Source: Candidatus Promineifilum breve
GTDB lineage: Bacteria; Chloroflexota; Anaerolineae; Promineifilales; Promineifilaceae
NCBI RefSeq assembly: GCF_900066015.1
Contig: NZ_LN890655.1
Location: forward strand, 868,001-932,000
Length of the DNA: 64,000 bases
Direction: 5' to 3'
Under the pieces are notes generated by a model that saw only the letters and a list, made by a program, of their open reading frames with translations, was not told the DNA's origin and made no database searches. Position numbers and translations under genes: made by a program. Every line of letters starts with the position of its first letter. The stretch's first letter is position 1. Positions 177 to 63,793 of this stretch are shown piece after piece.

Positions 177-181
177 GATGT

Positions 182-237
182 GGCGGGTGGCGAGTGGCGA
201 GTGTGCAGCGACTCGCCACCCGCCACTCGCCACCCGC
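182..237. repeat. Inverted array of GGCGAGT/GGCGGGT heptamers
   Basis: The left arm (182-202) is made of three 7-nt units of the type GGCGGGT/GGCGAGT, and the right arm (211-237) is the reverse complement with four units. The 8-nt centre is 203-210. The whole can fold as a long hairpin. It separates the DinB-like stop from the stop of the leftward PhyH gene, so it could also act as a bidirectional terminator, although there is no U-run. A close relative lies at 1305-1366. Confidence 0.85.
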
Positions 238-1304: not shown

Positions 1305-1366
1305 GTAGCGAGTAGCGGGTGGCGAGTAGCGGGTGGCGACCCGCTACCCACCACTCGCTACCCGCC
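1305..1366. repeat. Inverted array of GTAGCGRGT-type units
   Basis: Left arm 1305-1338 repeats short GAGTAGCGGGTGGC-like units; right arm 1339-1366 is their reverse complement with almost no loop. It is the same architecture as 182-237 with slightly different unit sequence. Its right arm runs into the 3' end of the GNAT gene (stop at 1344), so the last residues of that protein (RVASGG) are encoded by repeat sequence. Confidence 0.85.
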
Positions 1367-1883
1367 ATTCATCTTCAAGGATACTCATCAGGATCAGCGA
1401 CCAGTAGTGATCACCAGAGCGCCGGGAATCGCGCAGCAGTCCTTCACGCCGGAAGCCCACGCGCTCGTAGCAGGCGATGGCCGGGGCGTTGAAATCGAAC
1501 ACGCCCAGATCGACGCGGTGCATGCCCATCTCCTCGAACGCGATCCGTAGCGCGGCCCGCATTATCTGCCCGCCCGCGCCCCGCCCGCGCAATGCCGATG
1601 GCCCAACCAGAACGCGGCCGATGGTCAGCGAGCGGTTCGGCCGGTCGATGCTCAACAACTGAATGTGGCCAATCGTTTCGCCGGTAGCGGCGTCAATCGC
1701 CGCGAACGGCATATGCAACGGCTCCTCGCCCACCGTGTTCTCCAGGAACCTTGCCAGTTGCTCACGGGTCAGCGGAAATTGAAAGCGCGGCCCGGCGAAT
1801 TGGAGCAAAAATTCGGCCGACGGAACCCAGGCGATGAGTTGATCGATGTCGTCGGCCGTGAACGGGCGAAGTTCGACATTCAC
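1344..1883 (-). CDS. GNAT family N-acetyltransferase (RimJ/RimL-like)
   Basis: 179 residues from GTG 1883. The Acetyltransf_3 layout is clear: an N-terminal VELRPFTADDIDQLIAW segment, the acetyl-CoA loop as VLVGPSALRGRGAGGQIMRAAL (motif A, R/Q-x-x-G-x-G/A, near residue 100) and the C-terminal NAPAIACYERVGFRREG strand-helix. Substrate is not predictable. A longer open frame upstream is repeat-derived (SPTLSRGERE-type translation) and overlaps the previous gene, so I use the GTG just 4 nt after that gene's stop, which suggests translational coupling. The C-terminal tail comes from the repeat at 1305-1366. Confidence 0.8.
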   Translation of the reverse strand: MNVELRPFTADDIDQLIAWVPSAEFLLQFAGPRFQFPLTREQLARFLENTVGEEPLHMPFAAIDAATGETIGHIQLLSIDRPNRSLTIGRVLVGPSALRGRGAGGQIMRAALRIAFEEMGMHRVDLGVFDFNAPAIACYERVGFRREGLLRDSRRSGDHYWSLILMSILEDEWRVASGG

Positions 1884-5538: not shown

Positions 5539-5830
5539 CCCAGACCCTCTCCCTAACCCTCTCCCAGAGGGAGAGGGGACTAGAACCCTCTTCCCCCAGA
5601 CCCTCTCCCTAACCCTCTCCCAAAGGGAGAGGGGACTAGAACCCTCTTCCCCCAGACCATCTCTCTAACCCTCTCCCAGAGGGAGAGGAGACTAGAACCC
5701 TCTTCCCCCAGACCCTCTCTCTAACCCTCTCCCAGAGGGAGAGGAGACTAGAACCCTCTTCCCCCAGACCCTCTCCCTAACCCTCTCCCAGAGGGAGAGG
5801 GGACTAGAACCCTCTTCCCCCAGACCCTTT
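5539..5830. repeat. Five-copy 56-bp tandem array of hairpin units
   Basis: Units begin at 5539, 5595, 5651, 5707 and 5763, exactly 56 bp apart, with a partial sixth from 5819. Each contains the palindrome CCCTCTCCC-AGA-GGGAGAGGG. Copies differ at a few positions only. The array fills most of the 413-bp gap between the aminotransferase stop and the hppD start; I see no gene in that gap. There are no unique spacers, so it is not CRISPR. Confidence 0.95.
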
Positions 5831-5887
5831 CTCCCCTGCTCCCCTGCTCCCCCGCCCCCCTGCTCCCCTGCTCTGACCTTCCCCCCG

Positions 5888-7111
5888 CTACCCGCCACCC
5901 GCCACTTCCCCGATCACCCGCCCCAACCGCTCGATCCCCGCCTCAATATCGGCCAGGCAGCAATTGGAGAAGTTCAGCCGCATCGTATTGGCCGCGGCCG
6001 TGCCGGGCTGGGCGAAAGCCTGGCCGGGGATGAAGGCCACCCGCTCGCGCTCGATGGCCGTCTCCAGCAGCGCCCCCGCATCGACGTGTTCGGGCAGCGT
6101 GACCCAGATGAACATGCCGGCCCGCGGCGTCGTCCAGAAGACCCCCTCCGGGAAGTGGCGGGTCATGGCCGCCAGCATGGTATCGCGCCGGCAGCGGTAC
6201 TCCTCGTTCAGGCGGGCCAGATGCGCCGGCAAGTGGCCGCCGTCCAGATAGGCCGCCACCGCCCGCTGCGTCAGCGCCGACGACTCCAGATCGCCCGCTT
6301 CCTTGATGACCGTCAGCTTGGGCAGCAGCGCCTCGGGGGCGATGAGCCAGCCCAACCGCAAGGCAGGGGCCATGATCTTGGAGAAGGAGCCGACGTAGAA
6401 CACGTGGGAATCGTTGTGGGCACGCACCGGCGGCAGGCATTGGCCGTCGTAGCTCAGGAAGCCGTAGGGGTCGTCCTCCAGGATGGGCAGATTGTAGGCC
6501 ACGGCGACATCGGCCAGCCGGCGGCGCTTGGCCTGGCTCAGGCTGACGCCCAGCGGGTTGTGGGCGTCGGGGATGATGTAGAGAAAGGCCGGTCGCGCGC
6601 CCCCATCCAGGTAATCGATCACGTCCTCCACCTCGATGCCGGTCGCCAGATCGGTGCTTACCGGCAGCACGCGCGGGCGATAGGGGGCCACGACCTGCCG
6701 GATGCCGGTATAGACGATCTCCTCCAGCAACACCTGACCGCCATCGTCCAGCAACAGGCGGGTCAGCACGTCGAGCGCCTGCTGCGCGCCGGTGGTCAGA
6801 AAGACCTGCTCGGGCGCGCAATCGACGCCGCGCTCGGCCATCAGCCGCACGATGTGGGCCTTGAGCGGCGCGAAGGGCGGGCCGTATTGCAGCGCGCCGC
6901 GGTCGGTGGCTAACACCTGGGCCAGGGCGCGGCTATAGTCGGCCGTGGGAAACAGATCGGGCGCGGGCAGCCCCCCGGCAAATGACAGGATGCCGGGCCG
7001 CGACACGACGGCCAGCATCTGGCGCAGCACCGAGCGCTGCATGGTGTGGGTCCAATCGGCCAGTTCGATCGCCGGCGCGGCCACATTCAGGGCGGGCAAA
7101 GGGGAAACCAT
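5888..7111 (-). CDS. PLP-dependent aminotransferase, class I/II (LysN/ARO8-like)
   Basis: 407 residues. Fold-type I aminotransferase with ILSFAGGLPAPDLFP near the N-terminus (typical of 2-aminoadipate/aromatic transaminases), DDPYGFLSYDG and the PLP lysine in GSFSKIMAPALRLGW (about 235), and the carboxylate-binding Arg in NTMRLNFSN near the end. ATG 7111 has GGAG 11 nt upstream. It lies 8 nt after the Lrp-type regulator and upstream of hppD and hmgA, so transamination of tyrosine or phenylalanine is a sensible guess, though this family also acts on 2-aminoadipate and kynurenine. Confidence 0.85.
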   Translation of the reverse strand: MVSPLPALNVAAPAIELADWTHTMQRSVLRQMLAVVSRPGILSFAGGLPAPDLFPTADYSRALAQVLATDRGALQYGPPFAPLKAHIVRLMAERGVDCAPEQVFLTTGAQQALDVLTRLLLDDGGQVLLEEIVYTGIRQVVAPYRPRVLPVSTDLATGIEVEDVIDYLDGGARPAFLYIIPDAHNPLGVSLSQAKRRRLADVAVAYNLPILEDDPYGFLSYDGQCLPPVRAHNDSHVFYVGSFSKIMAPALRLGWLIAPEALLPKLTVIKEAGDLESSALTQRAVAAYLDGGHLPAHLARLNEEYRCRRDTMLAAMTRHFPEGVFWTTPRAGMFIWVTLPEHVDAGALLETAIERERVAFIPGQAFAQPGTAAANTMRLNFSNCCLADIEAGIERLGRVIGEVAGGG

Positions 7112-22881: not shown

Positions 22882-24417
<1,536 letters not shown>

Positions 24418-24556
24418 TTACGAATTAGGAATTACGAATTACGAATTCAGAGGGTGCTAGGTGCTAGGTGCTAGGGAAGAGGGTGCTTTATGACGAATCA
24501 CGAAGTCAGAGCGCGCTACCCTAGCACCTAGCACCTAGCACCTAGCACCTATCCCC
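24418..24556. repeat. Nested microrepeat arrays with inverted GTGCTAG arms
   Basis: An ATTACGA-type array (24418-24448) is followed by three GTGCTAGG octamers (24453-24477), a 38-nt centre, and the inverted array of CCTAGCAC octamers (24516-24550, about four units). It fills nearly all the 147-bp gap between guaB and rarD. Confidence 0.92.
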
Positions 24557-24564
24557 CTACTCTT

Positions 24565-25455
24565 ATGAATAAAGGCATGCTTTACGCGGCCGGGGCCTAC
24601 ATTGCTTGGGGTCTGATGCCGCTCTACTGGAAGTCGGTTCAGGTTGTGCCCGCCGGGCAAATCCTGGCCCATCGCATTGCCTGGTCGCTGTTCTTTGTCG
24701 TGCTGATACTGACCGCCCGCCGCCAATGGGGCTGGTTGCGCGGGGCGCTGCGCCGGCCGCGCGTTATTCTGCTCTTTACGCTGTCTGGTTTTTTGATTGG
24801 CCTCAACTGGTTCATCTACATCTGGGCCGTCAACGCCGGCCACATCGTCGAGACCAGCCTGGGCTACTTCATCAACCCGCTGGTCAACGTCTTGCTCGGT
24901 TATCTCGTCTTAAAAGAACGGCTGCGCCCGGCGCAATGGCTGGCCCTCAGTGTGGCGCTGGCCGGCGTGCTCTACCTGACCATCAGCTTCGGGGCGTTTC
25001 CGTGGATTGCCCTGACGCTGGCCTTCTCCTTCGGCACGTATGGCCTGATCCGCAAGACCGCCCCGCTGAATTCGGCCGAGGGGTTGTTCATTGAGACGGC
25101 CGTCCTCTTCCTGCCCGCGTTCGGCTTTCTGCTACTCATGGAGTCGCGCGGCGTGGGGGCCTTCGGCCATACCGGGCTGCCGGTGACGCTCCTTTTGATC
25201 GGCGCGGGCATCGTCACCAGCATCCCGTTGCTGCTCTTCGCCGCCGGGGCGCGCCGCATCCCGCTGACGACGCTCGGCCTGCTGCAATACATCGCCCCGA
25301 CGATGCAGTTTCTCATCGGTGTGTTGGTCTACAACGAAACCTTCGGCCTGACGCGCCTGATTGGGTTTGGGTTGGTGTGGTTGGCGTTGGTGCTCTATAC
25401 GATTGAAACGTTGATCGTCAATCGCCGGCGGGCGGTATTGCCGGCTGGGGTCTAA
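24565..25455 (+). CDS. rarD: RarD-type EamA/DMT family transporter
   Basis: 296 residues with about ten predicted helices in two EamA halves. The N-terminus GMLYAAGAYIAWGLMPLYWK, AHRIAWSLFFVV and NWFIYIWAVNAGHIVETSLGYF (shown in part) are RarD hallmarks. It is probably an inner-membrane metabolite exporter; family members are called chloramphenicol-sensitive, but the substrate is unsettled. ATG 24565 starts right after the microrepeat region, with no clear ribosome site. Confidence 0.9.
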   Translation: MNKGMLYAAGAYIAWGLMPLYWKSVQVVPAGQILAHRIAWSLFFVVLILTARRQWGWLRGALRRPRVILLFTLSGFLIGLNWFIYIWAVNAGHIVETSLGYFINPLVNVLLGYLVLKERLRPAQWLALSVALAGVLYLTISFGAFPWIALTLAFSFGTYGLIRKTAPLNSAEGLFIETAVLFLPAFGFLLLMESRGVGAFGHTGLPVTLLLIGAGIVTSIPLLLFAAGARRIPLTTLGLLQYIAPTMQFLIGVLVYNETFGLTRLIGFGLVWLALVLYTIETLIVNRRRAVLPAGV

Positions 25456-63643: not shown

Positions 63644-63793
63644 AGAATCCACAGATTACACAGATTACACAGATTTCACAGATTGATAAGAGGTATTATC
63701 CGCGGATTGGGCAGATTGGGCAGATTTCTTTTTATGCCGAACGCGGGGAGAATTTTTATCTGTGAAATCTGTGTAATCTGTGGATTTCTTATT
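63644..63793. repeat. Gene-less inverted microrepeat locus of CACAGATT units
   Basis: Left arm about 63644-63685 (four CACAGATTA/T units) and right arm about 63750-63793 (TCTGTGAAATCTGTGTAATC and following, three units) are inverted. Between them is a second array of GGGCAGATT units (63698-63729). It fills the 162-bp gap between mutS and the next leftward gene; there is no ORF inside. Confidence 0.92.

Follow-up and report, generated by a model that had tools for sequence, protein, structure and literature searches.

The region between guaB and rarD of Candidatus Promineifilum breve holds tandem copies of a short unit that face their own inverted copies, raising the question of how the two arms of such a structure come to match and what it may do behind a gene. 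A preliminary description of the sequence had suggested that inverted arms are built from whatever short unit is present. The analysis given here covers a window of 64,000 nucleotides (the whole stretch of DNA that was analysed), further stretches of the same genome (G000) and related genomes, and leads to the reading, held at a probability of about one half, that the site is a nested example of a hairpin class whose members are dispersed between genes, take the form (unit)n-core-(inverted unit)m, lie behind stop codons and have a putative role at RNA 3' ends.

Anatomy and abundance of the hairpins

Both guaB and rarD lie on the plus strand, with three heptamer arrays between them (Table 1). 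Tandem GGTGCTA units do face inverted CCTAGCA units, as first described, and a second array, of AATTACG, lies on the left side. The units had been taken for octamers present in equal number in both arms; their period is seven, the apparent octamers sharing one base, and the arms hold 3.3 and 4.6 copies. The GGTGCTA and CCTAGCA arrays pair into a perfect 24-bp stem with a 42-nt loop, and the region 24412-24564 has a fold value of -72.5, where its shuffles average -38.1 (z -9.1). The AATTACG array has its first bases in the guaB stop codon, and at the site where this genome has AATTCAGAG the congener G007 has AATTCAGAGCGC. Comparison of the sequence with that of G007 suggests that an AATTACG hairpin on the stop codon was opened at its core (AATTCAGAG) by a GGTGCTA hairpin, after which the right arm of the outer element would have been lost; the GGTGCTA hairpin itself appears to carry an ATGACGA-like remnant in its loop.

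Table 1. Features of the guaB-rarD site and sibling arrays elsewhere in the window.
Feature	Position	Strand	Basis or remark
guaB (IMP dehydrogenase)	22915..24417	+	TIGR01302 over cut-off
guaB stop codon TAA	24415-24417	+	overlaps first bases of AATTACG array
AATTACG heptamer array, 4.6 copies, one AATTAGG variant	24416..24447	+	
AATTCAGAG, putative left core half of outer element	24444..24452	+	sequence and G007 comparison
GGTGCTA array, 3.3 copies, left arm of inner hairpin	24453..24475	+	perfect 24-bp stem
GGGAAGAG, left half of the GGGAAGAGCGCTCTTCCC core common to sibling elements	24474..24481	+	
ATGACGAATCACGA, putative remnant resembling the ATGACGA heptamer family, inside loop	24490..24503	+	sequence and family comparison
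AGAGCGCGCTACCC, probable diverged right core half	24508..24521	+	sequence comparison
CCTAGCA array (minus-strand GGTGCTA), 4.6 copies, right arm of inner hairpin	24520..24551	-	
CTCTT, possible leftover of outer-core right half	24560..24564	+	just 5' of rarD start
rarD (EamA family transporter)	24565..25455	+	TIGR00688 over cut-off
Sibling: inverted GTGGCGR heptamer arrays	180..237		
Sibling: inverted GTRGCGR heptamer arrays	1305..1368		
Sibling: inverted CACAGATTW nonamer arrays	63650..63782		other material in loop

The guaB-rarD site is one copy of a large dispersed hairpin class. A sample of 464 kb, made up of the window and 20 chromosome stretches of 20 kb (taken every 200 kb along the main chromosome, with an interruption at the window and the last pair closer together), was searched for gapless inverted repeats scoring at least 13, with genes called by a home-made GC-frame model and intergenic regions above 1500 nt dropped. 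The 239 intergenic regions yielded 74 inverted repeats, against none in one dinucleotide shuffle per region. Arms were strongly periodic in 24 of the 74, with a period of 9 in ten repeats, 7 in eight, 8 in four, and 10 and 11 in one each, and their units are unrelated (GGTGCTA, GTRGCGR, CAGTGGT, GCAGGGGA, CGCAGATTW, CACAGATTW and others). Exact matches to GGTGCTAGGTGCTAGG number 60 in the 5.03-Mb genome and fall at 23 places, which include ten inverted pairs at exact-match strictness, every one plus-then-minus; AATTACGAATTACGAA has 118 matches, and the reversed controls of both strings have none. That one design is used with unrelated units, as had been noticed at the outset, thus holds many times over in this genome, and also in stretches sampled from four further genera of the family (G008, G028, G030 and G034). 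Chance or an assembly artefact is a negligible prospect given the empty shuffle, the absence of control matches in this genome, the 3.99-Mb length of the contig that carries the site, and the array that G007 has at the same position.

The GGTGCTA places are unevenly spread, 15 lying on the 1.0-Mb contig C2, from which stretches were picked for containing them, and 8 on the 3.99-Mb contig C1, a density about seven times higher on C2. Elsewhere in the window, positions 5539-5905 hold a 56-bp tandem repeat of the CCCTCTCCC type, beside CTCCCCTG 8-mers, between two minus-strand genes.

Polarity, core and dispersal

The arrays follow a constant polarity. When arrays were defined by motif, regardless of pairing, all 73 neighbouring opposite pairs ran in one order, with the complement following the unit strand, the family expressions overlapping (ATKACGA with AATTASG) and the 73 pairs not all being distinct elements; looser motifs gave the same polarity in 83 of 83 pairs. 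The left arms of the 74 repeats have more G than C in 52 cases, less in 12 and equal amounts in 10. A typical GGTKCTA element reads (GGTKCTA)n-GGGAAGAGCGCTCTTCCC-(TAGMACC)m, and an AAGA-N(2-8)-TCTT core is found in 12 of 14 GGTKCTA pairs and 5 of 8 CGCAGATT pairs. A core of this kind for all families was rejected, as it is rare elsewhere (3 of 51 pairs across the remaining six families) and frequent only in those two.

The core string GGAAGANNNNTCTTCC occurs at 21 sites here, 37 in G002 and 39 in G007, and at none in the five other genus members, with a reversed control of 0 in every genus genome except G004, which has 1; a scan of 298 genomes from the class gave 0 to 2 matches in each, G000 and G002 excepted. 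The units that most commonly flank it are GTGCTAG and GTTCTAG here, GGGCTAG and GGATTAG in G002, and GGGCCAG and GTTCCAG in G007 (read at 21 of 21, 37 of 37 and 17 of 39 sites, respectively), and an AGGNNNN frame recurs in the flanking units of all three species. The reversed core control CCTTCTNNNNAGAAGG was found 74 times in G658, a member of the same class, and at most 3 times in the other listed genomes; it is probably another dispersed palindrome family.

Nesting is seen beyond the guaB-rarD site. The G002 element at the orthologous locus D holds an inner hairpin within an AATTAGG/AATGAAGAG...CTCTT element, and the loop exceeds 35 nt in 10 of 13 CACAGATT pairs, 4 of these 10 having an inner hairpin under a strict test. 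By eye, the loop centres of CACAGATT hairpins carry CAGTGG-type sequence and often a second inverted array (stretch and position: L078 11598, L087 12767, L088 2677, L089 7111, L090 11548, L095 4953 and 16644, L099 10371).

These regularities bear directly on the idea that arms are assembled from any unit at hand. In its full form, local slippage and fold-back template switching would build inverted arms de novo at each site with no dispersal, which would account for many unrelated units in one design and for the mirrored unit order seen in G000 and G007 (see below), and template switching has been proposed to create and repair hairpin stems (PMC8794818). Such local building is nevertheless very unlikely, as it sits poorly with a polarity kept in 73 of 73 pairs, with one core that has 0 or 1 control match per genome, with identical units at tens of unlinked sites, and with vocabularies that differ genome-wide between species. 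The single polarity, the common GGTKCTA core and the families at tens of sites suggest that the elements mostly spread ready-made within lineages. The preliminary idea was half right: the arms are partly homogenised, and the fixed polarity and the core oppose construction from any local unit.

Spread of whole elements within a lineage could suggest non-autonomous REP- or MITE-like elements moved by a transposase, with nesting as insertion into a hairpin centre and any function incidental. We regard this as unlikely, even though dispersal, nesting, the occurrence of the core in 3 of the 8 genus members and the concentration of GGTGCTA places on C2 all accord with it. The candidate transposase Y1_Tnp (PF01797) was rejected as driver because 7 of the 8 genus members have it regardless of the core, including ones in which the core is absent, and the one gene examined of the three in this genome has non-tandem palindromes beside it and none of five array motifs near. 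No mobilising enzyme was found, Y1_Tnp genes failing to track the core across the eight genus members. The Y1_Tnp gene at C2:284376-284717 (L086 13900-14970) has runs of several short palindromes on both sides (CGTGGGATGAATCCCACG, AACCGGCTGAAGCCGGTT, GGCGGGTTTGAACCCGCC), which look like a second, independent REP-like system of this genome.

REPs and REPINs with their RAYT transposases resemble the elements described here in being dispersed palindromes behind genes and between convergent genes, and differ in size, REP palindromes measuring 20-40 bp, whereas the arms here are tandem arrays spanning about 100 bp (PMC3733652; PMC3116915). A consistent GTAG or CGTC tag, as at REP ends, was not found at the site or at sibling arm ends. 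The site itself has GTAG on the minus strand, in the loop (24516) and 6 nt past the right arm (24557), with none at the left; within 12 nt outside sibling arm ends it occurs at 2 of 42 in G000, 10 of 74 in G002 and 2 of 34 in G007, and CGTC at 0, 1 and 1, respectively. Loss of the hairpin nuclease SbcCD was also considered and was rejected on SbcD, which is present in all eight genus members.

Turnover and arm homogenisation among relatives

Fixation of the same loci across species, which the preliminary description had set against its own idea, was not found: guaB-rarD and 13 further probe loci vary among relatives. Among six same-genus relatives compared at guaB-rarD (G002, whose guaB is split over contigs, being left out), only G007 has an array, made of inverted AATTAGG/AATTACG units; G001, G004 and G005 have other hairpins, and G003 and G006 none at a score of 11. 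The 13 probe loci were picked because G000 has a hairpin there, and the 65 readable relative sites comprised 8 periodic arrays, 38 with nothing scoring at least 11, and 19 other inverted repeats, some of the latter lying inside the next gene and some being arrays under threshold. Since 38 of 65 orthologous sites lack a scoring repeat, a hairpin is not required there.

Relatives that have a hairpin may spell it differently. At locus C, the same stop codon has GGTKCTA units in this genome and GGTTCCA/GGGGCCA units in G007, and locus M has six CGCAGATT units here and six CACAGATT units in G007, the forms in G005 and G006 being read as decayed. Locus D has a hairpin in all eight genus members, of which three are arrays (G000, G002 and G007) and five plain GC stems, the ACGGATT hairpin of G000 counting as an array by eye and as non-periodic by script. 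Such calls of array or plain hairpin depend on threshold, the G002 repeat at locus E being non-periodic in one scoring and of period 7 in another. Hairpin turnover is fast, with relatives using other words for their hairpins or lacking them.

The units themselves are patchily distributed. The two units of the site are rare in the phylum, occurring in 3 and 10 of 400 genomes, and G004, of the same genus, has 97 AATTACG matches and no core site. A survey of 40 genomes of the phylum, one stretch each (534 kb, many short), found periodic inverted repeats in 4, two of which were stretches picked for known arrays. The phylum relative G122 has 178 matches to GGATCGTGGATCGTGG, a reversed-control string, and dense GGATCGT arrays of its own, with up to about 15 units, and stretch L383 has an inverted pair with GGGTCGT units near position 1500. 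The octamer arrays had also been expected to be sought in other phyla, and the string does recur there, the inverted design accompanying it at some of the places: GGTGCTAGGTGCTAGG matched at least 118 stretches, and among the 80 listed, 12 have an inverted repeat near the first match, within the roughly 200 bases around it that were checked. Ten of these 12 are heptamer-like, in Thiohalocapsa, Gemmatimonas and several Bacteroidota.

Concerted change of the two arms, the other element of the preliminary description, holds in part. Units were tokenised and counted outward from the core, and the order of one arm was compared with the mirrored order of the other, the count stopping at the first misfit unit, so that short arms drop out. 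In this genome 44 of 85 positions agreed (permuted mean 0.33; 0 of 5000 permutations), and in G007, where 17 of 39 elements were read, 26 of 46 did (0.32; 2 of 5000); mirror order was not detected by this test in G002 (15 of 85; 0.20; 3865 of 5000). Among elements with at least three units per arm, the first three units are exactly mirrored in 5 of 21 here, 4 of 11 in G007 and 0 of 20 in G002, and restriction to rare units left 1 of 26 positions here (1938 of 5000), 2 of 12 in G007 (10) and 2 of 29 in G002 (220). Without correction, a fixed-register test gave 1194 of 5000 here, 0 in G007 and 3532 in G002. Because the register of the two arms frequently differs by one base at the core, a gapped test was used as well, and this gave 33, 0 and 609 of 5000, in the same order, with 30-nt arms and 396, 0 and 1652 with 60-nt arms; arms of 44 nt gave 225 here, the signal weakening as the arms lengthen. 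In G007 the two arms of an element score 17.6 against each other and 12.7-12.8 against those of different elements, so the G007 set does not consist of plain copies of a single master.

Purity of the arms points the same way, as 16 of 23 C[GA]CAGATT elements (CGCAGATT/CACAGATT) are pure for one form where 1.8 would be expected. Tests restricted by motif in this genome fell below 5% only for CGCAGATT (74 of 5000), GGTKCTA giving 276, ATKACGA 287 and CACAGATT 563, and were not significant for GTRGCGR (1628), AATTASG (1851) or GCRGGGG (2158). An initial significance for GTRGCGR (p.0008) was discarded, its expression having mixed two subfamilies, and restriction removed it. Mirror order as a general law was likewise rejected, as it fails in G002 and in several families, and some G002 elements have different units in their two arms. 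Arms that are reverse-complement copies of each other beyond family likeness were sought as the mark of template switching, with a mixed outcome: G000 and G007 show the pattern and G002 does not.

These observations lead to the suggestion that unit number changes through slippage and that arms are partly re-copied from each other through DNA template switching. The published examples of template-switch mutation likewise involve DNA-level copying of one hairpin arm from the other; as described there they concern RNA genes rather than tandem arrays, and the support here comes from unit-order statistics only (PMC8794818). In its widest form, the suggestion would be that a DNA-level arm-copying drive and lineage-specific dispersal together keep the 3'-end hairpins of the genome self-complementary while species-specific heptamer words replace their sequence, a combination we consider decidedly unlikely as a whole. 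Were such a drive to operate, pairing would be kept by mutation and not by selection, and new hairpins would favour the centres of old ones.

Position at gene ends and relation to known repeats

The hairpins are placed with respect to the ends of genes. Of the intergenic regions, 17 of 39 convergent, 45 of 148 codirectional and 8 of 52 divergent ones contain inverted repeats; the median distance to a gene 3' end is 10 nt (84 distances) and that to a 5' end 40.5 nt (64). A Rho-independent terminator was rejected, as the combination of GC stem and U-tract was not found: TTTT stands at the right edge of 7 of the 74 repeats, and a consensus search for terminator-like sites at guaB-rarD returned 0. 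A search of Rfam at the site gave eight matches up to an E of 1, all miRNA models far under their gathering scores, which were read as an effect of any long hairpin, and identity with an Rfam family was rejected. Sense-strand mismatches in the 46 codirectional repeats comprise 17 G-U and 21 A-C, so there is no wobble excess of the kind that long selection at the RNA level would leave. The most likely role of the elements is nonetheless that of RNA hairpins at the 3' ends of transcripts, putatively in 3'-end definition, RNA protection or termination lacking a U-tract, and their arms would thus have to pair while their sequence stays free.

Alternatively, each array might offer an RNA- or DNA-binding protein several copies of its target site, the arrays being paired to raise avidity and the unit changing in step with its binder. 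The recurrent AGGNNNN frame around the core in three species and the genome-wide shift of units between species fit such a view, and binding sites have been proposed for the TAACTGA repeats of Beggiatoaceae (PMC4679880). Many unrelated units in one genome would call for many proteins, however, and divergent regions, where promoters lie, have the fewest repeats, making this explanation highly improbable.

Inverted heptamer arrays as a kind are already known. Paired convergent (GGGAATC)n arrays lie close together in Xanthomonas, with 70 cases in Xcc and 75 in Xac, mostly intergenic and nearer the 5' neighbouring gene (average 28 nt), with few between divergent genes; they differ in length and sequence between the two species and were described with no function assigned, and (GGGGAYT)n arrays are described for Nostoc (PMC4692102). 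The arrangement is shared here, tandem heptamers being followed by a convergent inverted copy, and so is the location in intergenic regions, close behind a gene and seldom between divergent genes, a comparison that covers all 74 repeats, 24 of them periodic. For Xanthomonas and Nostoc that report treats one unit family of G-quadruplex type per organism (PMC4692102). The present elements differ from those of Xanthomonas in their many unit families and unit lengths, in the core that some of the families share, in nesting, in using units at orthologous sites that are particular to the species, and in a mirror order that is partial. Neither GGTGCTA nor AATTACG contains three consecutive G, and by sequence neither fits the quadruplex pattern GGGANTN, so the site is not filed in the Xanthomonas quadruplex-type family.

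Two further systems show partial likeness. The P6b stem of the Nostoc trnL(UAA) intron consists of heptamer repeats of Class I (TDNGATT) or Class II (NNTGAGT), and resembles the present elements in its heptamer-built stem, its changes in unit number and the replacement of unit class at one locus; as there described it is a single locus inside an intron, while the elements here are dispersed, intergenic and built from many units (PMC4476775). The TAACTGA repeats are also intergenic heptamer arrays, patchy across distant phyla, but they are direct repeats of one unit, mostly just upstream of start codons, whereas the arrays here are inverted (PMC4679880). The six unit strings had no occurrence in the literature text searched, and many unit families per genome, a core, nesting, vocabularies at orthologous sites and mirror-order statistics were not found in the literature searched either.

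Matching hairpin arms are usually taken as a sign of selection on RNA structure. The elements described here offer tens of hairpins per genome and sister species that use different words on one core. For such hairpins, what selection predicts in G-U wobble, in mirrored unit order and in strain-level changes differs from what mutational arm copying predicts. Should arm copying prove real, covariation of the arms alone would be no proof of RNA function. The elements also illustrate that gene-end hairpins can differ wholesale inside one genus.
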